This document shows, piece by piece, positions 283-16,642 of a stretch of DNA of 16,642 nucleotides; positions within the stretch are counted from its first letter, which is position 1, and each line of letters starts with the position of its first letter. The notes under the pieces are model-generated. The model did not search any database and was not told the DNA's origin. It was given only the letters and a program-made list of their open reading frames with translations. This DNA is from Prolixibacteraceae bacterium. GTDB taxonomy: Bacteria; Bacteroidota; Bacteroidia; Bacteroidales; Prolixibacteraceae. Position numbers and translations under genes: made by a program. The DNA lies in contig JAEUSS010000463.1 in assembly GCA_016788685.1 (NCBI GenBank), positions 1 through 16,642 on the forward strand. Reading direction: 5' to 3'.

Positions 283-344
283 TAATTGTATGGTTTAAGT
301 TATGTTGATTTTTGTTTGAAATATAAATAATTTCAGGAAAAGAA

Positions 345-1418: not shown

Positions 1419-1790
1419 AGAATCAGGTTTGGTTTGGAATAGGTTTTAACACTTGCATTATTTGGTAAAGACCAGAATTGAGGGACTCGCCGCTCTTCTC
1501 TGATTTTTATTTCATGCTAAAGATAAATTTTTTCGGAAATTGCAGCGCGTAATAATTTGGTAATTTGCAGGTTTGTTGGTTGTTGTGTTATGTATGACAT
1601 TTGGCTATGTTCTGGTCGGAAATAATTAAATATATTTGGGGTCTGCATTTGGTCAGGTACAAGCCGGATTGTCTGGAACACGGAGTGCTTATCTCCGGAA
1701 TACCACAGGTCTAACGGCCTTTTCAGAAAGCCACTCTGAATGCAGTCTCCTGCAGTGAGGGGCATTGAAAATTCTAAAAGAAATCGAAAA
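1419..1790. promoter_or_regulatory. Divergent intergenic region between GH43 and sulfatase operons
   Basis: These 372 bp separate two divergent operons and must hold both promoters. On the plus strand TATATTTG at 1631-1638 matches the Bacteroidota -7 element TAnnTTTG; no clear -33 TTTG lies at the usual 19-21 bp spacing. On the minus strand, TATCTTTA (plus-strand 1518-1525) is a weaker candidate for the GH43 gene. If the plus-strand promoter is right, the sulfatase mRNA has a leader of about 145 nt. That leader contains short inverted repeats: CGGAG/CTCCG at 1681-1697, GGCcTTT/AAAGCC near 1715-1731, and TGCAG/CTGCA around 1741-1754. No gene is seen here; upstream in-frame codons of the sulfatase frame start at 1740 but lack a signal peptide at the right place. 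Confidence 0.4.
1631..1638 (+). promoter_or_regulatory. Candidate -7 promoter element for the sulfatase-fucosidase-galactosidase operon
   Basis: TATATTTG fits the Bacteroidota sigma-ABfr -7 consensus TAnnTTTG exactly and lies about 150 bp before the sulfatase start, in the right orientation. A TTTG at 1600-1603 is 27 bp upstream, longer than the usual spacing, so the -33 element is not established. The match is seen; the function is inferred. Confidence 0.35.
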
Positions 1791-3350: not shown

Positions 3351-3357
3351 ATCCAAT

Positions 3358-5394
3358 ATGACGTATCTTAAATATCTGATCATTCCATTTGTTTTTATGA
3401 CCTGGGTACAGACCAAGGCGCAGCTTCCTAAGCCCACGCCGTTACAGATGGAATGGCAAAAAATGGAGCAAATTGCATTCGTGCATTTCAGCATTAACAC
3501 CTTTACCGATATGGAATGGGGTTACGGCAACGAATCGCCTGAGTTGTTTAACCCAACGCAACTGGATTGCCGCCAGTGGGTAAAAATTTGTAAGGATGCC
3601 GGATTGAAAGGCGTCATCCTCACGGCCAAACACCACGACGGATTCTGCCTCTGGCCTTCGAAATATACCGGACACAGTGTGAAGAATTCGCCCTGGAAGA
3701 ACGGTAAAGGCGATGTGGTCCGCGAATTTTCAGAAGCATGTAAAGAATATGGCCTGAAAATGGGGCTGTACCTGTCGCCCTGGGATTGCAACCATCCGGC
3801 CTACGGAAAACCTGAATATAACCAGTATTTTAAGAATCAGCTCACCGAGTTGCTGACCAATTACGGTGACCTGTTCGAAATCTGGTTCGATGGGGCCAAC
3901 GGCGGACGCGGTTACTACGGAACCGACTCGCTGCACAACCGCAGCATTGCCGCCGATTATTACGACTGGAAAGGGTTTGTGGAAATTGTCCGCAAGCTTC
4001 AGCCCAACTGTGTTGTTCATGGCGGAGGTCTTCCGGATATTCGCTGGGTGGGCAACGAAGAAGGACATGCCGCCGAAACGCACTGGAGCTCTCTTCGCCC
4101 GAACGATCAGTTTGATAAAGACAAAAGTCGCCCGCAACAGTTGAACACCGGCCACGAAGACGGAACGCGCTGGCTTCCTTCCGAAACCGATGTGTCGGTA
4201 CGACCGGGCTGGTATTACCATGCCTTCGAAGACCACAAGGTGAAGACCCTGCCTGAACTGACGGATATTTACTACGAAAGCGTGGGGCGAAACAGTCTGC
4301 TGCTGCTTAACCTCAGTCCCGATAAACGCGGGCTGGTGCATCCCATCGACTCGGCCCGGCTGCTGGAGTGGAAGCGCCAGCTCGACCTTGATTTCAGTAA
4401 AAACCTGATTGACAAAAACTGCCGGTTTTCGTCCGGAGAACCCAAAAACCTGAAATCTGCGTTCGACAACGATTTTAACTCGTACTGGCAGGCAAGCTCT
4501 ACAACCGGAACGCTGGAAATAGATTTCCGGAAGGAAATTACCTGCAACCGGCTGTTGCTTCAGGAATATATTCCGGAGGGACAAAAAGTGAAAAACTTTG
4601 CGGTGGACATCTGGGAAAACGGCAACTGGGCCGAACTGACCAAAGCTACCACGATCGGCTACAAACGGATCCTGCGGTTTTTACCGGTTAAAACCCAGAA
4701 ACTCCGCATCCGTATCGAAGGTTCGCTGGCTCCGGCCATGATTTCGACCGTAGCGGTTTACAATGCCCCTGTTCTGTTGGCTCAGCCAGAAATCCGGCGC
4801 GATCAGTCGGGCAAAATCACGATCCTGTCGCCCGACAAGATTGGCGAAATTTATTACACCACCGACGGAACCCAACCTACCCGTAGCTCCGCAAGATACA
4901 GCCAGCCGTTCGTGCTCGATGGCCCGGCAATCGTCAAAGCCGTAATTTGTAATGGCCCCGACAATCAGGGAGAAACCACGACTCAGAAATTTACGGGCTC
5001 AAAATCAGAATGGAAAATTGTGGGCGAAACCAAGCCAAATCCGGCACTTTTCGACGGGAATCCCGGATCGACCTGGACCAGCAAGAAAGGTGTGAAGAGC
5101 ATTGAAATCGATTTGGGCGCGGCAACCTCTTTCCGGGGAATAAGCTATTTGCCCGATCAATCGCGCGGAAACTACGGCATTGCCCTGAACTATATCGTTT
5201 CGGTCAGCCCGGATGGCAATACCTGGGAACCTGTGGCAAAAGGCGAATTCTCCAACATCCGGAACAATCCCGTCGGGCAAACGATCAACTTCTCAAAACC
5301 GGTTCAGTTTCAATTCCTGAAACTGGAATCGACTTTAATTTCCGACGGGCATCCGTCGCTTGGAATTGCAGAACTGAATTTAATTACTGATTAG
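3358..5394 (+). CDS. GH29 alpha-L-fucosidase with two F5/8-type C-like domains and a chitobiase-C-like domain
   Basis: A 678-residue exported fucosidase with a signal peptide ending near residue 21 (TKA|QLPK). The catalytic TIM barrel covers about residues 28-345, with HHDGFCLWPS, GLYLSPWD and IWFDGANGG; Asp178 in the last motif is the expected nucleophile. Glu234/Glu235 in WVGNEEG are the candidate acid/base positions typical of the GH29-B group, which prefers alpha-1,3/1,4-linked fucose. After the barrel come an F5/8 type C-like beta-sandwich (about 350-468), a short CHB_HEX_C-like domain with IYYTTDGTQPTRSS (about 470-540), and a second F5/8 type C-like domain (about 545-678). These probably bind glycan. 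It sits between the sulfatase (7 bp) and the GH2 gene (19 bp), so all three are likely one mRNA. Catalytic family is secure; GH29-B is inference from motif resemblance. Confidence 0.93.
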   Translation: MTYLKYLIIPFVFMTWVQTKAQLPKPTPLQMEWQKMEQIAFVHFSINTFTDMEWGYGNESPELFNPTQLDCRQWVKICKDAGLKGVILTAKHHDGFCLWPSKYTGHSVKNSPWKNGKGDVVREFSEACKEYGLKMGLYLSPWDCNHPAYGKPEYNQYFKNQLTELLTNYGDLFEIWFDGANGGRGYYGTDSLHNRSIAADYYDWKGFVEIVRKLQPNCVVHGGGLPDIRWVGNEEGHAAETHWSSLRPNDQFDKDKSRPQQLNTGHEDGTRWLPSETDVSVRPGWYYHAFEDHKVKTLPELTDIYYESVGRNSLLLLNLSPDKRGLVHPIDSARLLEWKRQLDLDFSKNLIDKNCRFSSGEPKNLKSAFDNDFNSYWQASSTTGTLEIDFRKEITCNRLLLQEYIPEGQKVKNFAVDIWENGNWAELTKATTIGYKRILRFLPVKTQKLRIRIEGSLAPAMISTVAVYNAPVLLAQPEIRRDQSGKITILSPDKIGEIYYTTDGTQPTRSSARYSQPFVLDGPAIVKAVICNGPDNQGETTTQKFTGSKSEWKIVGETKPNPALFDGNPGSTWTSKKGVKSIEIDLGAATSFRGISYLPDQSRGNYGIALNYIVSVSPDGNTWEPVAKGEFSNIRNNPVGQTINFSKPVQFQFLKLESTLISDGHPSLGIAELNLITD

Positions 5395-5413
5395 TTAATT
5401 ATTAGATATCAAA

Positions 5414-7837
5414 ATGAAGCAGTTAAAGTTTACCGTTTATATTCTGTTATTTTTTGTTTTTTCCATTCCCGTATTTTCACAGTCAAAAGGGATAAAATTC
5501 AACGATAACTGGCAGTTCAAACTCGATTCGGCTAATACGCCCAACGACGAAGGTTTAGCCAAAGCGCAATGGCGCGAGGTACAGCTTCCGCACGACTGGA
5601 GCGTCGAACTGAATTTTGATGAAACCAGTCCGAGTGGCAACAGAGGTGCCAGTTTGCGCGGAGGAACCGCCATGTACCGGAAGTATTTCTCCTTGAATAA
5701 ATCGGATGAAGGAAAGAATATTTTCATCGATTTTGATGGTGTTTACATGAACAGCACAGTGTGGATCAACGGTCATAAGTTGGGAACACGCCCGTTTGGG
5801 TATATTTCTTTCCGCTACGATTTAACCCCTTTCCTCAAATTTGGCGGTCAAAAAAACGAACTGCTGGTGCGGGTCGAAAATCAGCAGCCTAACTCGCGCT
5901 GGTACAGCGGTAGCGGCATTTACCGCAACGTGTGGCTGGTTAAAACCGGCAAAGTGCATGTCGATCATTGGGGAACATACATTACTACGCCAAAAGTCTC
6001 GAATCAATTGGCCAATGTTCAGGTTCAGACTAAAGTTCGAAACAGCCAGAGCACGGCTGTTAAGTCAAGCTTAAAAACTTTGATTTATAATCCTGAAGGA
6101 ACGTTGATTAAAACGTTGACCAGTGATTTGTCTGTTCCGCAGAATGATTTGCTTGTTGCTGATCAGGAGTTTGCCATCGAAAATCCTAAATTGTGGTCAC
6201 CCGGGAGTCCGAGTCTTTATCGGGCAGTCAGCCAGGTTTTTGTGAACGGGAAGAAGACCGACGAATACACCACCACGTTTGGGGTAAGGTACTTTAATTT
6301 TGACCGGGAGAAAGGTTTTTTCCTGAACGGTGAACCCACTAAAATAGTCGGGGTCTGTATGCACCACGATTTGGGGGCTTTGGGCGCAGCAGTGAATTAC
6401 CGGGCGATGGAACGTCAGTTGGAAATCCTGAAGAAAATGGGGATCAACGGCATTCGTACTTCGCACAATCCGGCGGCTCCCGAGTGGCTCGACCTTTGCG
6501 ACAAAATGGGCTTTATCGTGATGACTGAAACTTTTGATGTCTGGAAAGCGATTAAAGAAAACACGCCGTTCAATTACAACCTGTACTTTGATGAGTGGCA
6601 CAAACGCGACATTACCGATCATGTGGTGCGCGACCGGAATCATCCTTCCGTTTTTATGTGGAGCATCGGCAACGAAATTCCGGAGCAATGGGGAGGAGAA
6701 AAAGATACTACCGGACGAACCATTGCCCGTAACCTGGTCAACATCGTTCATTCGCTCGACAGCCGTCCGGTAACAGCCGGGCTGAATCACGTGAGCCCGG
6801 AGAATAATCTGTACCTGTCGAAAGCGCTTGATTTGGTCGGGATCAATTATCACCATAAAGAATATCCGAATCTCCCGGCTATGTTTCCGGGCGAAACTTT
6901 CATTCTGGCCGAATCAAATTCAGCCTTGCAAACCCGTGGTGAATACCTGATGCCATCAACCGAAATACGCCGCTGGGCTGGTTTTACCAAAGCAAAAAAC
7001 GGCGGAACCCCCGACCTGATAGCTTCGGCCTACGACAACAGTTCGGCACCATGGGCATCAACTTACGAAGAAGTGCTGAAACCGGTTCTCAAGTACCCTT
7101 ATTTATCAGGTTTTTATGCCTGGACCGGTTTCGATTACCTGGGCGAACCTACGCCGTACCCGTTTCCGGCACGCAGTTCGTATTTCGGAATTGTGGATAT
7201 GGCCGGGTTCCCGAAAGATGCCTATTACCTGTTTCAAAGTTTGTTCACTCCGGAAACGGTACTGCACATTTTTCCGCACTGGAATTGGGAAAACGGTCAG
7301 GACATTGATGTGTGGGCTTATTACAACAATGCCGATGCTGTTGAATTGTTCCTGAATGGCAAGTCGCTGGGAGTTAAAGCTAAACAGGGCGACGAACTGC
7401 ACGTTCAGTGGGCAGTAAAATACGAAGCCGGAACCCTGAAAGCAGTATCGACCAAAGCCGGGAAAGTAGTGGCTGAAAGAGTGATTCGTACGGCCGGAGC
7501 GCCTGCGAAAATCGTGTTGTCGGCCGACCGGAATAAAATAAAAGCCGATGGCGAAGATTTATCATTTGTAACGGTCACGATTTTGGACAAAGATGGGAAC
7601 GTGGTTCCCAAAGCCAATAATCTGCTGAATTTTAAGCTGGAAGGCGATGCCGAAATTGCCGCACTCGACAATGGACTTCAAACCGATCTGACTCCGTATT
7701 CAAATAAAAAAACGCGCAATGCGTTTAACGGGCTGGCATTGGCCATTGTGAAAGCCCATCACAAAAAATCAACAGTTAACCTGACTGTTTCCGGAGAGGG
7801 CCTGAAACCGGCATCAATCCGGATCGATATTCATTAA
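5414..7837 (+). CDS. GH2 beta-galactosidase-like enzyme
   Basis: An 807-residue exported retaining glycosidase with a signal peptide ending near VFSQ (residue 23). Domain order is a sugar-binding jelly roll (about 25-185, with RWYSGSGIYRNVWL), an immunoglobulin-like domain (about 190-290), a TIM barrel (about 295-600), a DUF4982-like beta domain (about 610-690) and a C-terminal Ig-like GH2 domain (about 695-800). The acid/base Glu421 is in WSIGNEIPEQ and the nucleophile Glu500 in ILAESNS. RTSHNPAAPEWLDLCDKMGF is a hallmark of Bacteroidota GH2 beta-galactosidases. Other GH2 activities (glucuronidase, mannosidase) are possible but less likely. It closes the sulfatase-fucosidase operon, 19 bp after GH29, fitting a role in trimming galactose after sulfate and fucose have been removed. 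Confidence 0.92.
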   Translation: MKQLKFTVYILLFFVFSIPVFSQSKGIKFNDNWQFKLDSANTPNDEGLAKAQWREVQLPHDWSVELNFDETSPSGNRGASLRGGTAMYRKYFSLNKSDEGKNIFIDFDGVYMNSTVWINGHKLGTRPFGYISFRYDLTPFLKFGGQKNELLVRVENQQPNSRWYSGSGIYRNVWLVKTGKVHVDHWGTYITTPKVSNQLANVQVQTKVRNSQSTAVKSSLKTLIYNPEGTLIKTLTSDLSVPQNDLLVADQEFAIENPKLWSPGSPSLYRAVSQVFVNGKKTDEYTTTFGVRYFNFDREKGFFLNGEPTKIVGVCMHHDLGALGAAVNYRAMERQLEILKKMGINGIRTSHNPAAPEWLDLCDKMGFIVMTETFDVWKAIKENTPFNYNLYFDEWHKRDITDHVVRDRNHPSVFMWSIGNEIPEQWGGEKDTTGRTIARNLVNIVHSLDSRPVTAGLNHVSPENNLYLSKALDLVGINYHHKEYPNLPAMFPGETFILAESNSALQTRGEYLMPSTEIRRWAGFTKAKNGGTPDLIASAYDNSSAPWASTYEEVLKPVLKYPYLSGFYAWTGFDYLGEPTPYPFPARSSYFGIVDMAGFPKDAYYLFQSLFTPETVLHIFPHWNWENGQDIDVWAYYNNADAVELFLNGKSLGVKAKQGDELHVQWAVKYEAGTLKAVSTKAGKVVAERVIRTAGAPAKIVLSADRNKIKADGEDLSFVTVTILDKDGNVVPKANNLLNFKLEGDAEIAALDNGLQTDLTPYSNKKTRNAFNGLALAIVKAHHKKSTVNLTVSGEGLKPASIRIDIH

Positions 7838-7843
7838 AATCCA

Positions 7844-7914
7844 CATCACAGCCGACCGGAAATCTTTGTATTTCTTTTGTCTGAGGTACAAATTTTCCCG
7901 GTCGTGTGGTGATG
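7844..7914 (+). other. Three-part extended hairpin after the GH2 gene
   Basis: A 71-nt region folds as nested perfect stems: CATCAC 7844-7849 with GTGATG 7909-7914, CGACCGG 7853-7859 with CCGGTCG 7898-7904, and TTTGTA 7865-7870 with TACAAA 7887-7892. Small internal loops separate them. It begins 6 bp after the GH2 stop codon. It is followed on the plus strand by A residues, not a T tract, so it is not a standard intrinsic terminator. It may protect the 3' end of the operon mRNA or be a structured RNA. Pairing is seen; the role is unknown. Confidence 0.55.
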
Positions 7915-7950
7915 AAAAAAAGTTTCCGAGTAGTAATAGGCGCTAAGTTT

Positions 7951-7984
7951 GTTGGTTTATTCGCCATATATTTCTGTATTTTTG
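7951..7984 (+). promoter_or_regulatory. Likely Bacteroidota-type promoter for the D-lactate-type dehydrogenase gene
   Basis: GTTG at 7951-7954 and TATTTTTG at 7977-7984 resemble the -33 (TTTG) and -7 (TAnnTTTG) elements, with 22 bp between them, close to the usual 19-21. The -7 ends 28 bp before the ATG at 8013, giving a short leader. It shows that the dehydrogenase gene can be expressed apart from the upstream glycosidase operon. Confidence 0.5.
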
Positions 7985-8012
7985 CGGCCAACTAACTTTG
8001 TAAAAACGTATC

Positions 8013-10838
8013 ATGCTTACCGGAAATTACAAGCTTCTTTATCAGCAACTTATTCAGGTTGTCGATTCCAAACGAATTTTTCACGATCCGCTGCATACCC
8101 TGGCTTTCGGAACCGATGCCAGTTTTTACCGGCTCATTCCGAAAATGGTCATCAAGGCTAAAAATGAGGAGGAGGTATCATTTATCCTGAAGGAGAGTTC
8201 GAAACTGGATATTCCGGTAACCTTTCGTGCCGCTGGAACGAGCCTTTCCGGTCAGGCCATTTCCGACTCGGTGCTGGTTATTGCCGGCAACCACTGGAAG
8301 AATTTCAAAATTGATCAGGACGGCCTGAAAATCCGTCTGCAACCCGGGCTGACAGGCGCTAAGGTAAATTCACTGCTGGCTTCGTACGGCCGAAAAATCG
8401 GACCCGACCCGGCTTCGATCAATGCAGCCATGATTGGCGGGATCGCGGCCAACAATGCCAGCGGGATGTGCTGCGGAACAGCGGAGAACTCTTACAAAAC
8501 GCTCGATACCATGCGCATCGTCCTGGCCGATGGTTCGGTACTCGATACGTCCAGTGCAGAAAGCAAGGAACAGTTCATGAAAAGTCATCCGCAACTGATC
8601 CGGGAGATTGCAGATATGGTGGCCGAGGTAAAAGCCAATGATGAACTTTCGTCGCGTATTGCCCGGAAATTCAAAATGAAAAATACTACCGGATACAGCC
8701 TCAACGCGCTGGTTGATTTTTTCGATCCGTTTGAAGTGATTCAGCACCTGATGATTGGATCTGAAGGAACCTTGGGTTTTATTTCTGAAATTACCTATAA
8801 AACAGTGGTCGAACATCCGTTCAGGGCCAGTTCGCTGATGATTTTTCCGGACATTGAGAAAGCCAGCAATGCGGTGTCGCTCCTGAAGTCGGCTCCGGTT
8901 GCTGCTGTTGAGCTGATGGACCGCGCAGGGTTACGCTCGGTCGAAGATCAGGCCGGAATGCCATCGTACCTGAAAACCCTCAGCCCGACAGCCTGCGCCA
9001 TTTTGGTTGAAACCCGCGCCACACAATCCGATCAGCTCAACCGGCAAATTGCCGGGATTCTGCAAACCGTTCAGGCAATACCTTCCGAAATTCCGATCCA
9101 GTTTACCGATGTTCCTTCGGAATGTGCCTTGTTCTGGAAAATCCGCAAAGGGTTATTCCCCTCAGTTGGAGCCATGCGAAAAACCGGAACAACCGTGATC
9201 ATTGAGGACGTGGCTTTTCCGGTTTCCCGGTTAGCCGAGGCAACACTCGATTTGCACCGGCTGTTCGAAAAATGGGGTTACCACGAAGCGGTGATTTTTG
9301 GTCATGCGCTCGAAGGGAACCTGCACTTTGTATTTACCCAGGATTTCGGAACAGCCAGAGAAATTGAACGGTACAGCCATTTTATGGCCGAAGTTTCCGA
9401 AATGGTAGTCTCCAAATACGATGGTTCGCTCAAGGCCGAGCATGGAACGGGCCGTAATATGGCGCCGTTTGTCGAGATGGAGTGGGGAAAGGAAGCTTAC
9501 GATTTGATGAAGCGGATCAAGCGGATTTTTGATCCGAAAAACCTGCTTAATCCGGGTGTGATCCTGAATAATGATCCGGAAGCACACCTGAAAGATCTGA
9601 AACCGATGCCCGCCGCCAGCGAAAAGATTGACAAGTGCATCGAATGTGGGTTTTGCGAGCCCACCTGCGTTTCGGCCGAGCTGACTTTAACGCCCCGTCA
9701 GCGCATTGTGGTTTACCGCGAAATGGCCAGTCTGGCGAGGACTGGCCACGAACCGCACATCGCCGCGTCACTGGCAAAAGCTTATCAATACTCCGGAAAT
9801 GAAACCTGCGCTACTGACGGGTTGTGCGCCACCGCCTGTCCGGTTAAAATTGACACCGGTAAACTGATTAAAAATCTGCGTACCGAGGAAATTGGTTCAG
9901 GGCAAAAACGTGCCGTCTGGATTGCCGACCGCATGAAAGGTGTTACCTCTTCGGTTCGCGGAGCACTTTCGGTTGTCGGATTTTTTCATACCATCCTGGG
10001 AACATCTGTGATGAAAGGTATTTCAGGAGGAATGAGAAGTTTGTCAGGAAACCGCATCCCGCTCTGGAATCCGTATATGCCGTTGGGCGCCAGAAAGATC
10101 GATTCAACTCAAAACATAAAATCAGAGCATAAAGTGGTGTATTTTCCGTCGTGCATCAACCGGGCGATGGGTGTTTCAAAAGAACACCGGAACGAGAAAC
10201 AGCTTTCGGAAAAAATGCTGGAATTGTTGAATAAAGGCGGTTTCGAGGTCATTTATCCTGAAAACATGAACGCACTTTGCTGCGGAATGGCTTTTTCGAG
10301 TAAAGGGTATACTGAGGGCGGAACAAAAAAATCGGCCGAGCTGGAAGCCGCGTTGCTGAAAGCCAGCGAAAACGGGAAATATCCGGTTTTGTGCGACATG
10401 AGTCCGTGCCTGTTTACCATGAAGGAAAACATGAAATCGGGGCTGACGTTGTATGAACCGGTGGAGTTTATTCTGGAATACCTGTTGCCTAACCTGGAAA
10501 TTACGCCTTTGCAGGAAACGATTACCGTTTTCCCGGTGTGCAGCATGAAAAAGATGGGGTTGGAAAATAAACTCGTTGAACTGGCCGAAAAGTGCGCGGC
10601 CAAAGTGATTGTTCCTGAAACCAACTGCTGCGGGTTTGCCGGCGACCGCGGATTTTCGTTCCCCGAATTGAATGAGCACGGCTTGCGCGAACTGAAAATG
10701 CAGCTTCCGAATGAAGTGAAACGCGGCTATTCGACCAGCCGCACCTGCGAAATCGGTCTGAGCATGCATTCCGGAATTTCGCACCAATCGATTGTTTACC
10801 TGGTTGATCAGGTAAGCTTGGCTAAGGTAAATCATTAG
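8013..10838 (+). CDS. FAD- and Fe-S-binding D-lactate / D-2-hydroxyacid dehydrogenase
   Basis: A 941-residue cytoplasmic or membrane-associated flavoprotein that oxidises a D-2-hydroxyacid, probably D-lactate to pyruvate, and passes electrons through Fe-S clusters to a quinone-type acceptor. The N-terminal PCMH-type FAD domain (about 45-230) has FRAAGTSLSGQ and IGGIAANNASGMCCGT. The FAD-oxidase C domain (about 265-525) has GHALEGNLHFVF and KAEHGTGRNMAPF. A ferredoxin-like part follows: Cys542, 545, 548, 552 in CIECGFCEPTC and Cys599, 605, 609 in CATDGLCATACP. Two CCG repeats close the protein (CCG at 756-758 and 872-874), as in heterodisulfide-reductase-like subunits. The length is normal for this fused family. 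No signal peptide or transmembrane segment is obvious. The NlpE-like gene follows after 7 bp. The family is firm; the exact hydroxyacid is not determined by sequence. Confidence 0.9.
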   Translation: MLTGNYKLLYQQLIQVVDSKRIFHDPLHTLAFGTDASFYRLIPKMVIKAKNEEEVSFILKESSKLDIPVTFRAAGTSLSGQAISDSVLVIAGNHWKNFKIDQDGLKIRLQPGLTGAKVNSLLASYGRKIGPDPASINAAMIGGIAANNASGMCCGTAENSYKTLDTMRIVLADGSVLDTSSAESKEQFMKSHPQLIREIADMVAEVKANDELSSRIARKFKMKNTTGYSLNALVDFFDPFEVIQHLMIGSEGTLGFISEITYKTVVEHPFRASSLMIFPDIEKASNAVSLLKSAPVAAVELMDRAGLRSVEDQAGMPSYLKTLSPTACAILVETRATQSDQLNRQIAGILQTVQAIPSEIPIQFTDVPSECALFWKIRKGLFPSVGAMRKTGTTVIIEDVAFPVSRLAEATLDLHRLFEKWGYHEAVIFGHALEGNLHFVFTQDFGTAREIERYSHFMAEVSEMVVSKYDGSLKAEHGTGRNMAPFVEMEWGKEAYDLMKRIKRIFDPKNLLNPGVILNNDPEAHLKDLKPMPAASEKIDKCIECGFCEPTCVSAELTLTPRQRIVVYREMASLARTGHEPHIAASLAKAYQYSGNETCATDGLCATACPVKIDTGKLIKNLRTEEIGSGQKRAVWIADRMKGVTSSVRGALSVVGFFHTILGTSVMKGISGGMRSLSGNRIPLWNPYMPLGARKIDSTQNIKSEHKVVYFPSCINRAMGVSKEHRNEKQLSEKMLELLNKGGFEVIYPENMNALCCGMAFSSKGYTEGGTKKSAELEAALLKASENGKYPVLCDMSPCLFTMKENMKSGLTLYEPVEFILEYLLPNLEITPLQETITVFPVCSMKKMGLENKLVELAEKCAAKVIVPETNCCGFAGDRGFSFPELNEHGLRELKMQLPNEVKRGYSTSRTCEIGLSMHSGISHQSIVYLVDQVSLAKVNH

Positions 10839-10845
10839 AAATTAT

Positions 10846-11316
10846 ATGAATAACATGACCATGAAAACTACTTTAACAGTTCTTTTGACGATTGTACTTT
10901 GGGGTTGTGCCGGACGCAGTTCGCAAAACGGCGTTCAGAAAAGTCAGGATTCAGTAAGTACGGAGGCTGTTGCTCCGGATATGCACAATGCGAAGATTGC
11001 ACTTGATTTCGCCGGAACTTACAAAGGAACCCTGCCGTGTGCTGATTGCAGCGGCATCGAAACCGAAATACTGATCAGTACCGATCTATCTTTTGTGCGC
11101 AAAACCCGGTATCTGGGGAAAAATGGTCAGACAGTTTTTGAAGAGAAAGGCACTTACAAGTGGAACGATGCCGGGAATACCATTATCTTTAACGAGGTGA
11201 AAGATGCGCCGGATCAGTATTTTGTCGGCGAAAATGTGTTGATTCAGCTTGATCTTTCGGGAAACCGGATTACCGGCAGTTTGGCTGAAATGTATGTGTT
11301 GAAAAAGGTATTGTAA
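10846..11316 (+). CDS. NlpE N-terminal-domain lipoprotein
   Basis: A 156-residue lipoprotein. Three in-frame ATGs (10846, 10855, 10861) precede a hydrophobic stretch and the lipobox L-W-G-C (Cys21 from the first start); the start at 10861 gives the most typical signal peptide, and 10846 is the longest option. The mature part has FAGTYKGTLPCADCSGIETEI with a Cys65-x-x-Cys68 pair. This is the signature of the small beta-barrel N-terminal domain of NlpE, linked in enterobacteria to copper response and to sensing of lipoprotein trafficking. The C-terminal OB-fold domain of E. coli NlpE is absent, as in most Bacteroidota homologues. It is 7 bp after the dehydrogenase and so probably co-transcribed, but no functional link is known. 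Whether it senses copper or redox state here is inference. Confidence 0.82.
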   Translation: MNNMTMKTTLTVLLTIVLWGCAGRSSQNGVQKSQDSVSTEAVAPDMHNAKIALDFAGTYKGTLPCADCSGIETEILISTDLSFVRKTRYLGKNGQTVFEEKGTYKWNDAGNTIIFNEVKDAPDQYFVGENVLIQLDLSGNRITGSLAEMYVLKKVL

Positions 11317-11404
11317 ATCTAAAAAGAACGTTTCCTTTTGCCCGAGCCTAAATCGGCGAGTTGTCTGAATTTGCTGAAAACTTAACCAACTAACTATACT
11401 GGCA

Positions 11405-12589
11405 ATGGATCAATTAAAATTCAAAAAAGCAGGAATGGCACTGATGATGCTCTTTTCTGCATTGCTGTCTTCAGGGCAGGGAACCAAAAAGGTACAAACT
11501 TATGATGTCGCTGCTTTTTACTGGCCGGCTTACCATCATGAACCGCGGCTGCAGCATGTTTTCCCGGATGGAAAGGGAGAATGGGAAGATATCTATACCG
11601 CCAAACCCGAAAGACCGGGGCATGATCAGCCGAAAGTTCCGGTTTGGGGATACGAGGACGAATCGGACCCCCGGGTGATGGAAAAGAAAATTGATGCGGC
11701 TCAAAAACACGGGGTTAATGTATTTATTTTCGACTGGTATTGGTACGACGGGAAACCCCTGCTCGAAGACTGTATCAACAACGGGTTCCTGAAAGCAAAA
11801 AACAACGATCAGATCAGATTCTACATCATGTGGGCCAACCACACCGCCAATAGTTACTGGGACCGGAAGATGCAGGATAAAACCAAGGTGTTGTGGCCCG
11901 GCGAGTGCGACCGGAAAAACTTCGATATCGTGGTCGACCGGATTATTTCCCGGTATTTTAAACATCCTTCGTACTACAAAATTGACGGGAAACCTGTTTT
12001 CAGCATTTATGAATTGTCGACCCTGATCAAAGGGCTGGGCGGAATTCAAAACACGAAAGAAGCCCTGGACTCGTTCCGGAAAAAAACGGTGGAGGCCGGA
12101 TTCCCGGGATTACACCTTCAGGCGATATTGTGGGGTGCAATTCCGAAAAATCTGGCTGGTGTTCCCGGAGATCAAAGCCAAACGCAGGGTGGAGTACTCG
12201 ATTATTTCGGGTTTAATAGTCTGACCAATTATTCGTGGGTTCACTTTATCTCGCCGGATAACGATTACATCGACTGGGCTAACCAGGCAACTGCCATGTG
12301 GCCGAAGTTCGATCAGGAGTTTTCCATTCCCTTTTTCCCGCATGTTTCCATCGGGTGGGACAACAATCCGCGCTTTCCGGAAGGCAAACAGCCGTATGTC
12401 AGAAATACCAAACCCGAATCGTTTGCCATTTATCTGAAAAAGGCTAAATCGTACCTCGATCAGCATCCGGAACAACCCAAACTGATTACCATTAATGCCT
12501 GGAACGAATGGTCGGAAGGTAGTTATCTGGAGCCCGACCAGACCAACGGGTTCGGCTACCTGAAAGCGATAAAGAAGATATTTAAATAG
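11405..12589 (+). CDS. Secreted WbsX / GH99-like glycoside hydrolase-type protein
   Basis: A 394-residue exported protein with a signal peptide ending near SSGQ (residue 25). The remainder matches the WbsX family (Pfam 'glycosyltransferase WbsX'), now usually treated as GH99-like TIM-barrel hydrolases: AAFYWPAYHHEPR near the N-terminus, VFIFDWYWYDGKPLLED in the middle, and NAWNEWSEGSYLEPDQ near the C-terminus. The last two motifs carry the acidic residues expected at the active site, but catalytic identities are not certain. Export argues for glycan hydrolysis rather than a cytoplasmic transferase role. It lies 88 bp after the NlpE-like gene with no clear promoter seen between them, and ends just before a strong bidirectional terminator. 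Substrate unknown; GH99 proper acts on alpha-mannosides, but that should not be assumed here. Confidence 0.82.
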   Translation: MDQLKFKKAGMALMMLFSALLSSGQGTKKVQTYDVAAFYWPAYHHEPRLQHVFPDGKGEWEDIYTAKPERPGHDQPKVPVWGYEDESDPRVMEKKIDAAQKHGVNVFIFDWYWYDGKPLLEDCINNGFLKAKNNDQIRFYIMWANHTANSYWDRKMQDKTKVLWPGECDRKNFDIVVDRIISRYFKHPSYYKIDGKPVFSIYELSTLIKGLGGIQNTKEALDSFRKKTVEAGFPGLHLQAILWGAIPKNLAGVPGDQSQTQGGVLDYFGFNSLTNYSWVHFISPDNDYIDWANQATAMWPKFDQEFSIPFFPHVSIGWDNNPRFPEGKQPYVRNTKPESFAIYLKKAKSYLDQHPEQPKLITINAWNEWSEGSYLEPDQTNGFGYLKAIKKIFK

Positions 12590-12594
12590 GCTGG

Positions 12595-12641
12595 TCATAA
12601 AAAAAGCATGGAGCGACGAACGGTCCATGCTTTTTTTATGA
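12595..12641. terminator. Bidirectional intrinsic terminator
   Basis: An 18-bp perfect inverted repeat (12595-12612 with 12624-12641) encloses an 11-nt loop. The stem core is GCATGGA/TCCATGC. A run of seven A before it and seven T after it provide U tracts for transcripts from either side. It lies 6 bp past the WbsX-like stop and 9 bp past the stop of the minus-strand esterase, exactly between two convergent genes. Confidence 0.93.
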
Positions 12642-12649
12642 GAGTAAAA

Positions 12650-13555
12650 TCAGCGGGTAATGGCACTTTTGTCCATCCACTCAAACAGCGGTTTCATCCA
12701 TTCTTCAGGCTTCATTTTTAATACAAATCCATGATTTCCGGAGGGGTAAAGGTGCATCTCCGCCGGAACTTTATTCCGGATTAACTCCTGGTAGAAACGA
12801 ATGCTGTTTTCAACCGGAACCACGGTGTCGTCGCCGGTGTGGGTGAGCCAGGTGGGAGGGGTGTTTGGGTTAACCTGTAAATAGTTGGAAAAAAGTTTGA
12901 CTTGTTCTTCGGAAGGCGATGGGCCAAGCAGGTTGTTGCGCGAACCTTTGTGGGTTAATCCTTCCTCCATGCTGATGACCGGATAAATCAGGATCATAAA
13001 ATCGGGACGCAGGCTGATGTTTTCAGGATTGGGAATGTATGATTTGTTGAAATGAGTTCCGGCGGTTGAGGCCAGGTGACCTCCGGCCGAAAAGCCCATG
13101 ATTCCGACCTTTGCCGGGTTGATGTTCCATTCGGAAGCCCGCTGGCGTACCGTTTTAATGGCTTGCTGGGCATCCTGAAGCGGGCCAACCGATTTGTCGT
13201 TCATGATTGAATCGGCAGGCAGCCGGTATTTCAGTACCAATGCAGCAATCCCTTTTTTCTGAAACGATTCGGCAATCATCGTTCCTTCTGTTTCGTAGCA
13301 TTCCATTTGGTAACCTCCTCCCGGACAAATAACCACAGCCGCTCCGGTGGCTGTGCTTTTTTCGGGCAGATAAACGGCCAGCGTCGGCTGGGCAATATTC
13401 CGGTAGCCCACAAACTGCCCGTTATTTTCCATCCGGACTTCTTTCATGGCGTACGGCTTACTGTTTGGAACGGCGCCCGGATATAACGGAATGGTTTTTT
13501 GAGCTGAAACGTGCGTGGAAATCAATAGCATTAACGCGAATAAAATTTTGTACAT
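12650..13555 (-). CDS. Secreted alpha/beta-hydrolase esterase (BD-FAE / acetyl-xylan-esterase-like)
   Basis: A 301-residue exported serine esterase. The signal peptide ends near VSA|Q (residue 18). The oxyanion-hole motif CPGGGY is at residues 77-82 and the nucleophile elbow GFSAGG holds Ser156. The acid is Asp243 in HTGDDTVVPVENS, and His275 lies in SGNHGF. The length and motifs match the BD-FAE-type alpha/beta hydrolases common in Bacteroidota glycan loci, which remove acetyl or feruloyl groups from hemicellulose-like polymers. It lies 11 bp downstream of the CE4-type deacetylase on the same strand, so both probably act on decorations of the same polymer. The catalytic triad is read directly; the acyl group removed is inference. 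It ends 9 bp from the shared terminator. Confidence 0.88.
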   Translation of the reverse strand: MYKILFALMLLISTHVSAQKTIPLYPGAVPNSKPYAMKEVRMENNGQFVGYRNIAQPTLAVYLPEKSTATGAAVVICPGGGYQMECYETEGTMIAESFQKKGIAALVLKYRLPADSIMNDKSVGPLQDAQQAIKTVRQRASEWNINPAKVGIMGFSAGGHLASTAGTHFNKSYIPNPENISLRPDFMILIYPVISMEEGLTHKGSRNNLLGPSPSEEQVKLFSNYLQVNPNTPPTWLTHTGDDTVVPVENSIRFYQELIRNKVPAEMHLYPSGNHGFVLKMKPEEWMKPLFEWMDKSAITR

Positions 13556-13566
13556 GGTGGTTGATT

Positions 13567-14355
13567 TTAGTTTCTTAATTTTTTATTCAGGTCAGGAACA
13601 ATTGTTTTTGCTGCCTTTTTTATCCTGATGTAGTTGGACAAATCACGGAGGGCAATGACTTTAAACCGGTTGGCGGCAAGGTATTCCAGATATTCTCTGA
13701 ACAACTCGGGTGGCGTGGTGACCCAGGGATGTTCAATATCCGGAACGCCATGAATGGTGAGCACCACAATCTTTCCGTCGCGTGCTTCCTGAAAAGCTTC
13801 CATCATCAGCGGTTTGTTGTCGGCATTCATGGCCCAGCTGGGGATGAGCAGCGGATGATCGGTTTGCGGATCGTAAGCACGGCTGCCACCTGCCCGGGCA
13901 AACCGGTAACCCTTTTCGGCCAACACTTCGAGCACCGGAAGGCTGAGGTCGTAACCCGGGTAGGCAAAGCTGACAGGCCGGGTAATTCCCGAAGAATCGC
14001 ACCGATGTTCGATGTATTCGAGCTGGCCGATCAATTCTTGTTTGGTCAGTTTGCTTACCGGCGGATGATTCCGGGTGTGATTGGCCACTTCAAAACCCAT
14101 GCGGCCGAGCTCGCGAATCTGCCGCCAGTTCATGTATTTGGAGGTATCCGTGAAGTGGGGAGGAAATTCGCAAATAAAGAAGGTTGCGCCAAAGCCAAAT
14201 TCTTTCAGGAGTGGCGCCACCACCGAATACTGACTGGCCGTGGCATCGTCGAAAGTGAGTACGACCAGGCGGTCGGGAATTTGTTTCTTCACGGTACCTG
14301 AAAATCCGCAACAGGCCAGTGCCATCAACAGCAGCAGTATCGTTGGTTTTTTCAT
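13567..14355 (-). CDS. Secreted NodB-type polysaccharide deacetylase (CE4-like)
   Basis: A 262-residue protein that should hydrolyse N- or O-acetyl groups on a polysaccharide. The hydrophobic N-terminus ends in LACCGFSG; it could be a Sec signal or, with Cys15, a non-ideal lipobox. NodB motif 1 is TFDDA (Asp36 base, Asp37 metal ligand). Motif 2 is NHTRNHPPVS, with His93 and His97 as the other metal ligands. Motif 3 is the FAYPGYD stretch, and LTIHG near the C-terminus supplies the late catalytic His. All key residues are present, so it is probably active. It leads a two-gene operon with the esterase. Candidate substrates are acetylated xylan or chitin-like polymers, or a peptidoglycan-type glycan; sequence alone does not choose. 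Confidence 0.9.
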   Translation of the reverse strand: MKKPTILLLLMALACCGFSGTVKKQIPDRLVVLTFDDATASQYSVVAPLLKEFGFGATFFICEFPPHFTDTSKYMNWRQIRELGRMGFEVANHTRNHPPVSKLTKQELIGQLEYIEHRCDSSGITRPVSFAYPGYDLSLPVLEVLAEKGYRFARAGGSRAYDPQTDHPLLIPSWAMNADNKPLMMEAFQEARDGKIVVLTIHGVPDIEHPWVTTPPELFREYLEYLAANRFKVIALRDLSNYIRIKKAAKTIVPDLNKKLRN

Positions 14356-14380
14356 GAAGTTTTGGTTATGGTTATGTTGA

Positions 14381-14388
14381 CAAAAGTA
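14381..14388 (-). promoter_or_regulatory. Candidate -7 element for the deacetylase-esterase operon
   Basis: Read on the minus strand this is TACTTTTG, an exact fit to TAnnTTTG, placed 25 bp before the deacetylase ATG, so the leader would be very short. No TTG at the -33 spacing is seen, so only half of the promoter is supported. Confidence 0.4.
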
Positions 14389-14501
14389 ACGGCTTGAACG
14401 GAGTTTTCGGAGTTTTTCCGGAAAAGATTTCGTGGAAACAGAAAAGAAATTCGTGCGCCCGAAAAAAGGAGCATTGAAGTTTGATTTGAACTCAGCGACG
14501 G

Positions 14502-14574
14502 TTTAAAATTAGCCGAACGATTGGTTTTCAAACGAAATCAGAACCGTTCGGAATCCGTGTGGTTTAATTTTAAA
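14502..14574. repeat. Nested 73-bp imperfect palindrome
   Basis: The outer arms TTTAAAATTA (14502-14511) and TAATTTTAAA (14565-14574) are perfect complements. The inner arms CCGAACG (14513-14519) and CGTTCGG (14545-14551) are also perfect, with further TTTC/GAAA pairing near the centre. No T tract follows. It lies about 150 bp upstream of the deacetylase start and about 55 bp before the tandem array. Confidence 0.6.
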
Positions 14575-14628
14575 TCAGGGGGAACTGCGTTTAAAATGTA
14601 TTTATTCAGATTTTGATTCGATTACTTT

Positions 14629-14838
14629 GAATTGCTGAAGATTTGCATTGAATTGCTGAAGATTTGCATTGAATTGCTGAAGATTTACATTGAATTAATG
14701 AAGAATTACATTGAATTTTTGACGATTTATTTTTAATTATTGAAGAATTTAATTGAATTGATGAAGATTTACAGTGAATTAATGAAGATTTACAGTGAAT
14801 TAATGACGATTTACATTGAAATAATGAAGAATTCAGGG
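14629..14838. repeat. 21-bp tandem repeat array, about 9.5 copies
   Basis: Units begin at 14629, 14650, 14671, 14692, 14713, 14734, 14755, 14776, 14797 and 14818 (the last partial). The consensus is roughly GAATTxxTGAAGATTTACATT. The first two units are identical and the third differs at one base; later ones diverge by several substitutions, yet the 21-bp period is never broken by an insertion or deletion. A degenerate unit may precede it at about 14609. On the plus strand the units spell heptads such as ELMKIYS, interrupted by one TAA at 14734-14736. On the minus strand they spell heptads such as CKSSAIQ in a frame with only a TTG start. There are no unique spacers, so it is not a CRISPR array. 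Confidence 0.9.
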
Positions 14839-14845
14839 AATAGAA

Positions 14846-14880
14846 GGTTCTGTTCAATAAACAGTTGGTTGAACAGAACC
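14846..14880. repeat. Perfect 12-bp-arm inverted repeat beside the tandem array
   Basis: GGTTCTGTTCAA (14846-14857) pairs with TTGAACAGAACC (14869-14880) around an 11-nt loop. It starts 8 bp after the last 21-bp unit. No T run follows on either strand, so a terminator is unlikely; it may be a protein-binding palindrome or the end of a mobile element. Confidence 0.75.
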
Positions 14881-15203
14881 CAACCAAACGGTGTCAGGTG
14901 GATGTATTAAACAAATATTCTATATATTTGATAGCGTTGCCGCTAACACCTAAAAACCAACGAAGAAAACTATCCGCCTGATGCTGCCCGAAAATCATCC
15001 AATCCATATTTACCAGACTATTCACATTGACACGCATCGTGAATATACGCGCAATGGACGGGGATACCCCAGCTCCGGCGCGAGTCCTTTCGCGGGATCA
15101 ACGATAAATCTGTTTCTTATTTTTAGGTTCCAGCAACGGTTAATTCGTGCATGAGCCTTAACGACAAACTTCAGAACCAGAAAACCACGCGATGCAACCG
15201 CCT

Positions 15204-15241
15204 CTACCCCTCGTTTAAGCGATAGCGTCAACGAGGGGTAG
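15204..15241. repeat. Palindrome A: CTACCCCTCGTT / AACGAGGGGTAG
   Basis: Perfect 12-bp arms (15204-15215 and 15230-15241) enclose a 14-nt loop. The 9-bp heart CCCCTCGTT/AACGAGGGG recurs at 15316-15336. Paired, G+C-rich short palindromes like this resemble REP/BIME elements moved by REP-associated tyrosine transposases, none of which is in the window. Confidence 0.75.
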
Positions 15242-15248
15242 TTGGTTT

Positions 15249-15263
15249 TGCGTCTGTGACGCA
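15249..15263 (+). terminator. Small hairpin with T-rich tail, possible terminator
   Basis: TGCGTC (15249-15254) and GACGCA (15258-15263) pair around a TGT loop and are followed by G and five T, then GTTTG. The geometry fits a weak intrinsic terminator reading rightward, but no gene is seen directly upstream on that strand, so it may instead be part of the repeat cluster. Confidence 0.35.
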
Positions 15264-15289
15264 GTTTTTGTTTGGTATTGCACCTGGGA

Positions 15290-15306
15290 TTAAGTTACAA
15301 ACTTAA
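15290..15306. repeat. Small perfect hairpin TTAAGTT / AACTTAA
   Basis: Seven-bp perfect arms around a 3-nt loop, 9 bp before palindrome B. It is one of several triloop hairpins packed into 15249-15406. Confidence 0.55.
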
Positions 15307-15315
15307 AACTATTTA

Positions 15316-15336
15316 CCCCTCGTTGCAAACGAGGGG
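15316..15336. repeat. Palindrome B: CCCCTCGTT / AACGAGGGG
   Basis: Nine-bp perfect arms around GCA. It repeats the heart of palindrome A 101 bp downstream, so the two form a pair of similar palindromes spanning 15204-15336. Confidence 0.75.
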
Positions 15337-15388
15337 CAGCACTGGGAAATCTATGTTGCGTATTTTAGTATATAAAACCAGCCTAAGA

Positions 15389-15532
15389 AAATATACGCAA
15401 TGCGTAAAATAACTATGAATGCAAGGACTATGTTTCAGTAAAACGATTTATTGTCTTTATTATCAATTAAGTAATGTATCTTCTGAAAAACTATTTATTA
15501 TAAAAGTCACTCAAATATAATTGCGTATATTT
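15389..15532. repeat. 144-bp A+T-rich segment bounded by a 12-bp perfect inverted repeat
   Basis: AAATATACGCAA (15389-15400) is the exact reverse complement of TTGCGTATATTT (15521-15532). A related copy, TTGCGTATTTTA, is at 15356-15367. The inside is A+T-rich with no gene. The right arm overlaps the small hairpin at 15508-15537 and ends 4 bp before the GTTATGGC core of the first cassette-like gene. Its length is close to the 149 bp of the attC-like element downstream. Confidence 0.5.
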
Positions 15533-15537
15533 GAGTG
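15508..15537. repeat. Perfect 12-bp-arm hairpin abutting the first GTTATGGC core
   Basis: CACTCAAATATA (15508-15519) pairs with TATATTTGAGTG (15526-15537) around ATTGCG. The right arm contains TATATTTG (15526-15533), an exact match to the -7 consensus, so this could also hold the promoter of the first small gene. The last G of the hairpin is the first base of GTTATGGC. Confidence 0.6.
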
Positions 15538-15548
15538 TTATGGCCAAT
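15537..15548 (+). other. Upstream core site GTTATGGCCAAT
   Basis: This 12-bp string recurs as GTTATGGCTAAT at 16224-16235, where it forms the right end of the attC-like element. In both places a TTAAAA follows within one or two bases, and the small-gene start lies 30-32 bp after the first G. It may be the left boundary (attI- or attC-type core) of the first cassette-like unit. The match is seen; recombination function is inferred. Confidence 0.45.
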
Positions 15549-16067
15549 GTTAAAAGTGACAAAACAATGACTCGACAGTTAATATTTTTGATCCTATTTA
15601 TATGTACAAGTATTGCCTGTTTTTCGCAAACTAACATTGATACATGCAATACTGACTATTATAGGGAGAAAATTCGGTTAAATATAATAGCGAAGGAGTT
15701 AAAAGACACAGTAGTCTTATTCCATAATTATATTAGCGGGGTTGACGAAAAACGAATAATTTGCAACTCCATAAGTATTACTAGCGATTTGAATAACTTG
15801 ATATGGGAAAGTAAATACATCAAGTCATACCTTAATTATCAAAACAAATGGAACAAATTTTCTATTATTTCATACAAAATTGACAATCACACCGACACAA
15901 TAGCTTGCTATTTCTTATGCGATAGAAACACAAAGAGAACTGTTGAAATGGTGAGATTTCGAATAGCAAATAAAAAAATAAGCGGAATAAATATTTTACC
16001 AAAAATCTATAATGGATTTGTGCCGATTGATGAATTTGAGAACTATAGGATTGAAGAATATGAATAA
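15540..16067 (+). CDS. Small secreted protein of unknown function (cassette-like gene 1)
   Basis: I do not recognise a family. From the ATG at 15540, inside the GTTATGGC core, the product has 175 residues; from the alternative ATG at 15567 it has 166. Both lead into a hydrophobic segment (LIFLILFICTSIACFSQ), a Sec signal with the Bacteroidota-typical FSQ end, so the protein is exported. The mature part is about 145 residues, rich in Ile, Asn, Lys and Tyr, with four cysteines, two of them in CYFLC, and no transmembrane segment. Base composition is clearly more A+T-rich than the glycan locus, suggesting acquisition. I prefer 15540 because the Met-Ala-Asn start is shared with the mini-frame ahead of the next gene, but 15567 gives a more ordinary signal peptide. 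The attC-like element begins 13 bp past the stop. Confidence 0.7.
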   Translation: MANVKSDKTMTRQLIFLILFICTSIACFSQTNIDTCNTDYYREKIRLNIIAKELKDTVVLFHNYISGVDEKRIICNSISITSDLNNLIWESKYIKSYLNYQNKWNKFSIISYKIDNHTDTIACYFLCDRNTKRTVEMVRFRIANKKISGINILPKIYNGFVPIDEFENYRIEEYE

Positions 16068-16080
16068 ATAAAACACTGTG

Positions 16081-16229
16081 CATAACTTCAGCTACCCGTC
16101 AAGGTCGGCGGCAGAGGTTTTCGGTGGGCATCTTTCCGCTCGGGCTGCTTTTAGGCTTGACAGGAATTGAAAATCGGCGCAAGCCAAATCGCCCGCAATC
16201 CGCACCTGCGTGTAGCTTCCTACGTTATG
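16081..16229 (+). other. attC-like recombination-site candidate
   Basis: The ends form a broken inverted repeat: CATAAC (16081-16086) with GTTATG (16224-16229), and AGCTAC (16090-16095) with GTAGCT (16212-16217). They are separated by unpaired spacers of 3 and 6 nt. This is the R''-L''...L'-R' layout of integron attC sites, with unequal unpaired spacers. The 116-nt centre has further pairing, such as GTCAAG (16098-16103) with CTTGAC (16156-16161). It is much richer in G+C than the genes on either side and has no reading frame. The core GTTATGG departs from the classical GTTRRRY at one base. No integrase gene is in the window. A palindromic mobile repeat is the main alternative. Confidence 0.5.
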
Positions 16230-16259
16230 GCTAATTTAAAACGTGCATTTAGACAATGA
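16227..16259 (+). CDS. Ten-codon mini-cistron starting in the core site
   Basis: ATG at 16227-16229, inside GTTATGGC, opens the frame MANLKRAFRQ and stops at TGA 16257-16259, overlapping the ATG of the next gene by four bases (ATGA). The first gene has the matching start MANVK at 15540, there in frame. No Shine-Dalgarno is evident before the small gene, so translation of this leader could deliver ribosomes to it by coupling. The frame and overlap are seen; expression is inferred. Confidence 0.35.
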   Translation: MANLKRAFRQ

Positions 16260-16642
16260 TGGCAAGATTAATAACAATAGTATTTTTAAGTCTTTTGACA
16301 GGCAATCTCTGTGGTCAATCAATTCCTTCGTTTTGGATGAATATATATAGACTTGATGATTACTTTGAGACGAAAAAAGGAGAAATCAATAAGATCACAG
16401 TTGATAAGATTGGGTATTATTCATCGGGAGACACTTATAAAGAGAAATGGATTTATTCTTTTATTTCCCAAAGTCGGATACAAGGAGAAAAGTATAAAGA
16501 CAGTGAATTACAAATGAAATTTCAATTAGAATTAGATAGCCTAAATCGAATAGTAAAAAAGATCACTGAATCCAAAATTCCATTGATTGGATGGAGAAAA
16601 GAAATTATTGTTTTTGAGTACGGCGACAACAAAGTAATATTT
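16256..16642 (+). CDS. Small secreted protein of unknown function (cassette-like gene 2, runs off right edge)
   Basis: I do not recognise a family. The frame is open for 129 codons to the window end. Two adjacent ATGs (16256 and 16259) are possible starts; the first overlaps the mini-cistron stop. The N-terminus MMARLITIVFLSLLTGNLCGQ is a Sec signal peptide ending near CGQ, so the protein is exported. The visible mature part (SIPSFWMNIYRLDDYFETKK and on) is polar and Lys/Glu-rich with aromatic residues every few positions, and suggests a beta-rich domain; there is no transmembrane segment. It shows no evident likeness to gene 1 apart from the shared upstream core and export signal. It is A+T-rich like gene 1, consistent with a different origin from the glycan locus. 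Confidence 0.7.
   Translation, partial: MMARLITIVFLSLLTGNLCGQSIPSFWMNIYRLDDYFETKKGEINKITVDKIGYYSSGDTYKEKWIYSFISQSRIQGEKYKDSELQMKFQLELDSLNRIVKKITESKIPLIGWRKEIIVFEYGDNKVIF

Follow-up and report, generated by a model that had tools for sequence, protein, structure and literature searches.

Probable head of an integron-type cassette array in a Prolixibacteraceae genome, and related arrays with non-IntI recombinases in the Bacteroidia

The window, by which we mean the whole stretch of DNA analysed, comprises 16,642 nucleotides (positions 1 to 16,642, forward strand, of contig JAEUSS010000463.1, assembly GCA_016788685.1) from a Prolixibacteraceae bacterium. Its open reading frames from 1 to 14355 read as polysaccharide-breakdown-like genes (sulfatase, fucosidase, beta-galactosidase, deacetylase). 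The gap preceding the features discussed here holds an A+T-rich imperfect tandem repeat of gaattgctgaagatttacatt-like units at 14640-14860, and at 15211-15241 and 15317-15337 there are two inverted repeats whose arms are CCCCTCGTT...AACGAGGGG-like. At 15509-15536 there is a perfect 11-bp inverted repeat, not assigned to a strand (15509-15519 and 15526-15536, with a 6-nt loop), which abuts the GTT of the core GTTATGGCYAAT. This core is present in exact copies at 15537 and 16224, before each of two small genes, and all features from here on lie on the plus strand.

The first copy opens the start of cassette 1 (core GTT plus an R'-type arm, 15537-15551), followed by gene 1 at 15567-16067, which encodes 166 aa. 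An R''-type arm ending in AAC (16072-16086), which pairs with the cassette start, marks the end of cassette 1. The attC-like site extends from this AAC to GTTATG (16084-16229); it contains the L'' arm (16090-16108) and the L' arm (16200-16217) of an inner stem, both placed by the aligned columns of a 19-pair consensus, and an unpaired central spacer with TTC on its 5' side (16087-16089) and TCCTAC on its 3' side (16218-16223). The second core GTT opens the start of cassette 2 (16224-16238), whose gene runs from 16256 to 16642, where it is truncated by the contig end; 129 aa are visible, and there is a second ATG at 16259. The earlier note on this DNA had described the shared core, its distances of 30 and 32 bp to the ATGs at 15567 and 16256, and a 149-bp element at 16081-16229 with an R''-L''...L'-R' layout, all of which we confirm; this element is the attC-like site. 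Gene 1 has 25 homologues at 45-64% identity, without a listed Pfam domain, and a family scan gave DUF6621 alone (E 0.12), while no homologues were found for gene 2 using the contig-end fragment 16259-16642 as query.

The core by itself is weak evidence, since its pattern with up to two mismatches occurs 5 times in the window against 2.63 expected, and 19 of 200 shuffled sequences reach this number. A one-mismatch search of the whole genome was uninformative because the reversed-pattern control gave more matches (154 + 136) than the core pattern (60 + 47). Single-sequence folding of the attC-like site was no better than that of shuffled sequences (z 0.22). The two ends of cassette 1 are complementary at 12 of 15 positions; the mean for true partners is 11.9, and a match this good is reached by 1.25% of 5518 non-partner pairs. 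At least 12 complementary positions were reached by 2 of 74 other ends when paired with this cassette start, and by none of 74 other starts when paired with its end. Exact copies of the element's 3' arm occur 18 times, in 14 stretches belonging to 10 Bacteroidota MAGs, of which five carry the title Prolixibacteraceae, and the element is therefore more than a chance arrangement.

Two covariance models of the site were used: R1, the first, and R2, a broader successor built on diverse sites. The attC-like site of the window matches them with 133 and 62.7 bits, respectively, scores that are not independent as the site is a training row of both R1 (45 rows) and R2. It carries an insertion of ~21 bp in the terminal loop region, and an almost identical insertion is present in L045. 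The inverted repeat at 15509-15536 has the position taken by imperfect repeats between the integrase stop and the first GTT in L078, L081, L083 and L085, and we regard it as a putative attI-like site, with no integrase adjoining; the insertion point at the cassette 1 start would be G^TT.

In the MAGs sharing the 3' arm, copies of the element are ~125 bp long, lie between differing genes and keep the same orientation within an array. In three large arrays, 31 of 33 cassettes have their longest ORF (at least 60 aa) on the same strand as the array. The earlier note's proposal of an integron-type or integrase-less cassette array in a Bacteroidota genome is thus supported: the relatives' sites separate genes of mostly one orientation, cassette boundaries fall at GTT, and a tyrosine recombinase is often found upstream. 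Its expectation of an IntI-group recombinase nearby did not hold, as the array recombinases of the relatives are non-IntI. Terms such as same order, class, phylum or family here follow the kinship labels of the genome collection. The note's suggestion that the cargo consists of exported accessory proteins is a possibility only; a Pfam scan gave a family match for 5 of 10 cassette proteins. Cargo observed includes a DUF4917/SIR2-like protein (L079, 816-1859) and a barstar-like protein (L078, 18818-19345).

A hallmark of integron cassettes is that the start of a cassette matches its own end, the two adjoining each other in the circle. This was assessed by comparing the bases after the GTT of one element with the reverse complement of those before the AAC of the next. 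In the first loci, consecutive elements matched at 5.39 of 7 positions (31 cassettes) compared to 3.08 for shuffled partners, and none of 10000 shuffles was as high. Diverse loci of other families gave 5.82/6 in 22 cassettes (2.51 shuffled), and other orders 5.69/6 in 54 cassettes (2.80 shuffled), with 53 of all 59 pairs at 5 or 6. For the arrays of G313, G234 and G034, using all consecutive pairs found, the mean was 4.94/6 against 2.39 shuffled in 35 pairs shorter than 4.5 kb, 27 of which scored 5 or 6; the training set of the model included eight of these sites, but the pairing in question is not part of the model's structure. Pairs below 4/6 made up 6 of 75 pooled pairs, while scores below 5/6 occurred in 8 of the 35 from the three large arrays and 6 of the 59 from other orders. 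Measured against shuffled-partner controls, cassette starts are thus complementary to the R'' of their own attC, as in integrons.

The match extends to long units. With these included, 24 of 25 pairs score 5 or 6 in G313, which has a unit of 12.6 kb with a 6/6 end match (L216/L160), and in G034 all seven units, 444 to 19438 bp long, have ends matching at 6/6, the very long ones spanning 5.7 to 19.4 kb on G034:C3 (L220-L222, L159). When longer units are included in G234, 10 of 14 pairs fail, often where one identical sequence follows GTT. On G234:C1, between 2251 and 2304 kb (L217, L174, L218, L219), an identical GTTAATGGGTCAGTTG was seen after several attC-like sites; perhaps this is an insertion element that targets them. 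L174 and L210 also carry a recombinase that has the look of an IS91-associated one.

The folded site can be described as an outer stem, which joins the two ends of a cassette, and an inner stem. For the outer stem, 75 cassettes were pooled, 69 of which match at 4/6 or better, and the 66 distinct ones were tallied, a choice that favours matching cassettes. Pairing is seen at positions 1-9 in 62-66 of these, at position 10 in 35 and at positions 12-15 in 45-57, with little beyond. At position 11 a top-strand A stands opposite C in 50 of 66 cassettes and the reverse orientation in none, which makes this position a G.T wobble on the bottom strand. The same A/G column is present in the pairing of the cassette 1 start and end in the window; in other orders it is less marked, with 34 of the 53 matching pairs having it. 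The inner stem, from an alignment of 51 diverse sites, has 19 pairs, 17 of them changed on both sides; one pair is G.U on the bottom strand in all 51 sites, and hence A.C on top. The bottom strand folds at -33.7 kcal/mol and the top strand at -25.3 kcal/mol. An asymmetric unpaired spacer lies between the stems, and the C preceding GTT is invariant in the alignments.

PMC2727003 describes two or three extrahelical bases in a canonical attC, the first of which mainly sets strand choice. Here a single inner-stem alignment of the 51 sites has three insertions, all of them absent from 37 sites; 12 sites have one on the L'' arm and 2 have one on the L' arm. By this count the two or three extrahelical bases expected on the R''-L'' arm of an integron site are lacking. 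We speculate that the wobbles take over the strand-choice role of these bases, and that the folded bottom strand is the recombination substrate.

Comparison of relatives adds signs of mobility. G007 and G010 are 93.6% identical over 8 kb, and the identity stops exactly at ACTAGTT, the attI core, beyond which their cassettes differ. A two-cassette block is present in two copies in G001 (1384 columns, 99.4%), and three MAGs have a cassette in common (96.5% and 84%). In the strongest case, a segment of 9590 columns with 11 mismatches (99.85%) is found at the attI-like site in G371 (L169, 3738-13327) and in mid-array in G234, a member of another family (G234:C1, ~2253415-2262862). Its left break is at CGTT, which in G371 lies downstream of the integrase, and its right break follows an attC; judged from the open reading frames, this shared ~9.4-kb cassette carries regulators that look TetR-like and what may be an RND efflux operon. 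These breaks point to an exchange point at GTT next to the integrase, at attI, as in an integron.

Upstream of the arrays, and mostly in array orientation, are integrases of ~578 aa (the long form) or shorter forms. Such an integrase was found in L078, L081, L082, L083, L085, L159, L160, L167, L168, L175, L239, L242, L247 (with a broken frame), L250, L219 and L210, often with an attI-like stretch between it and the array. An integrase or partial match points away from the array in L244, L249 and L269, L264 has no integrase within the stretch, and L270 has a partial match only. A survey of the order gave, among the matches listed, at least 13 genomes with an attC within 12 kb downstream of an integrase on the same strand, and an adjoining divergent integrase/attC pair in G383 and G056. 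Of the minus-strand integrase matches listed, 31 of 79 end within 600 bp of the contig end on the downstream side, compared to 5 of 71 plus-strand matches on the upstream side (p 3e-6); this is expected if repetitive arrays break assemblies. The integrase of Aquipluma nitroreducens (P0009) is 92% identical to that of L078. In Persicobacter sp. JZB09, a plasmid encodes an integrase and carries two sites; the one cassette between these scores 1/6 in the end test. L089 and L090 (G007:C9, G010:C39) encode a 704-aa protein with an apparent second recombinase half, with three sites downstream in L090.

These enzymes differ from canonical IntI. The stretch between the KG.KDR-like and HTLRH motifs, which contains the IntI-specific insert, is 58-62 residues long in 40 of 40 new-type integrases (10 long and 30 other, a set that includes some not placed beside an array), and 100 residues in all 30 measurable of 31 canonical IntI. 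TIGR02249, the integron integrase model, scores four new integrases at 199-238 bits against a cut-off of 265, and the long integrases skip its positions ~177-234, the IntI-specific stretch. The additional domain around patch III that is specific to IntI is therefore absent from them. In a tree of 57 rows, IntI forms a separate clade (support 100/100) and the new integrases form several branches; the branching order between the two was not resolved in this tree. Six Xer rows form a branch apart (100/99; XerA not included), which sets the new integrases off from these Xer recombinases, and no Xer was noted beside the arrays. The closest solved structure by sequence is IntI4 (159 bits), followed by archaeal XerC-like (149) and XerA (133) proteins.

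The residues R424, H514, R517, H540 and Y549, which we take to be catalytic, are invariant in 26 homologues. The long form has ~290 additional N-terminal residues, predicted with modest confidence to fold into three beta-beta-alpha-beta-beta-alpha modules; the structure model has a mean pLDDT of 67.7 and a pTM of 0.36, and structural comparison spanned residues ~290-558. The N-terminal 269 residues gave no useful match to PDB sequences (best E 0.23), and Pfam DUF5710 is at or just above its cut-off in L078 and L081 and below it in L082. The modules may resemble HARP domains and may have a DNA-binding role.

The genome of the window itself, in 654 contigs, appears to hold only a remnant of this system. 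The window's element is the only close copy found in it, and the broader site model finds one further site, on contig C536; single copy, which the earlier note had named as a result that would speak against its reading, is thus nearly true of this fragmented genome and untrue of the relatives. The window has one attC before the contig end and no integrase. Contig C504 retains part of an integrase N-terminus that contains a stop, together with an attI-like site and an apparent cassette start. Matches to IntI below the cut-off were considered as a signal and rejected: they occur in 11 of 11 genomes (this one and ten array-bearing ones) and are uninformative because all 14 control genomes have them as well. 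The system looks decayed here, and we take the window to hold a copy, decayed or separated from its integrase, of a system that otherwise works.

That system seems widespread. R1 matches 86 of 393 genomes of the window's order and R2 matches 241 of 385 genomes of its class (E 1e-7; 9 candidates scored per genome). We take this class to be Bacteroidia because the relatives with names are Bacteroidota and one has Bacteroidia as its title. At E 1e-40, an integrase search was positive in 140 of the 393 genomes of the order, some of which may have integrases of other kinds. Genomes in one or two contigs have 50 (G313), 25 (G224) and 15 (G234) matches to the site. R2 gave no match on a plasmid with a class 1 integrase, nor in G345 and G337.

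Compared to canonical integrons, the likenesses are the cassette arrays of mostly one orientation, the attI beside the integrase, cassette transfer, the R''/R' pairing of a cassette's own ends and the top-strand C before the GTT core. The differences are the missing IntI insert and the N-terminal extension of the long form, the bottom-strand G.T wobbles in sites most of which show no extrahelical base, matched-end units of up to 19 kb and an integrase that lies mostly in array orientation; some canonical integrons also have their integrase in array orientation. A CALIN is a cluster of at least two attC sites within 4 kb and with no integrase nearby; the window, whose contig ends after one attC, resembles it in having a site and cassettes with no adjoining integrase, but its site is of the new type. 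The unpaired central spacer, the inner L stem and the variable terminal part have counterparts in the canonical site as PMC2727003 describes it. Archaeal integrons are likewise outside the usual host range and found in MAGs, yet, in the account that PMC9668308 gives of this point, archaeal IntIs carry the IntI-specific domain, unlike the new integrases. For Bacteroidetes proper, the IntegronFinder 2.0 survey of complete genomes names a single complete integron, that of Salinibacter ruber, and it lists others in Chlorobi and Ignavibacteriae (PMC9024848, section 3.1). Among the matches listed from the open-licence literature, no title or abstract opening describes this system; a description may exist elsewhere.

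An ordinary integron might also account for the arrays, with a canonical IntI having built them and then been lost, or acting in trans. The sites share the canonical layout, three of the four new integrases tested have TIGR02249 as their top NCBIfam model, and IntI does occur in the phylum, above the cut-off in 105 of 395 genomes. We nonetheless consider this improbable. The window's own genome has no IntI above the curated cut-off in its 654 contigs; of 107 phylum genomes with a strong IntI match, a figure not normalised to the share of the class, only G439 is of the same class and none is of the same order; and the arrays adjoin non-IntI integrases. R2 matches 11 of 41 canonical-IntI genomes, and in 12 stretches of such genomes the new-type sites adjoin non-IntI integrases in L261, L263 and L265, whereas five canonical IntI loci gave one weak R2 match in all (L266, 41 bits).

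A dispersed element, MITE- or REP-like and mobilised by a transposase, that lies by chance between small genes would fit a conserved repeat of many copies, ~125 bp long and with inverted ends, but an ordinary inverted-repeat insertion would have matching ends of its own. The two ends of a single element match at 3.25 of 7 variable positions (48 elements), near the 3.08 of shuffled partners and well below the value for consecutive elements, which speaks against such an insertion; nor does this explanation predict the order, the orientation or the integrase at the array head, which makes it very improbable. Fixed ancient operons with structured intergenic RNAs, such as terminators or riboregulators, would explain a covarying hairpin and genes of mostly one direction. 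Against them, the window has no Rfam match, the same cassette occurs in differing places and families, the strand that would correspond to such an RNA folds less well than the bottom strand, and the outer stem joins two distant cassette ends; we regard such operons as extremely improbable.

We believe instead that the window is very probably the head of an integron-type array, with an attI-like site, cassette 1 and its attC-like site and the start of cassette 2, and that it belongs to an integron class present in much of the Bacteroidia. The sequences show cassettes with self-complementary ends, arrays headed by a recombinase, relatives whose likeness breaks off at GTT and one cassette common to different families, and from these comparisons we infer recombination. 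The enzyme would be a non-IntI tyrosine recombinase whose gene lies upstream and usually in array orientation; it would bind the folded bottom strand of the site and exchange strands at G^TT; the cassette would then be excised as a circle, or inserted at attI or at another attC, with the choice of strand set by the G.T wobbles. Working like an integron, as strong comparative evidence suggests, and lacking the feature that defines IntI integrons, the system is in our view a Bacteroidia class of integrons.

Beyond this, we lean slightly towards the view that it is a second integron lineage and the main means of cassette capture in the class Bacteroidia, with recombinases that fall outside the clade of IntI. 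The recognition of extrahelical bases would have given way to a wobble code in which the recombining strand has G.T and the other strand A.C; this code is possibly read by the N-terminal modules, and operon-sized cassettes (9.4 kb for the shared one, matched-end units up to 19 kb) would move between families. With no IntI insert and few extrahelical bases, strand choice on a near-symmetric hairpin becomes testable. An apparent efflux operon moving as a single unit would stretch the usual concept of a cassette. If this reading is true, 241 of 385 genomes of the class have attC-like sites tied to a recombinase outside the definition of IntI, which would change the view of where cassette capture happens.
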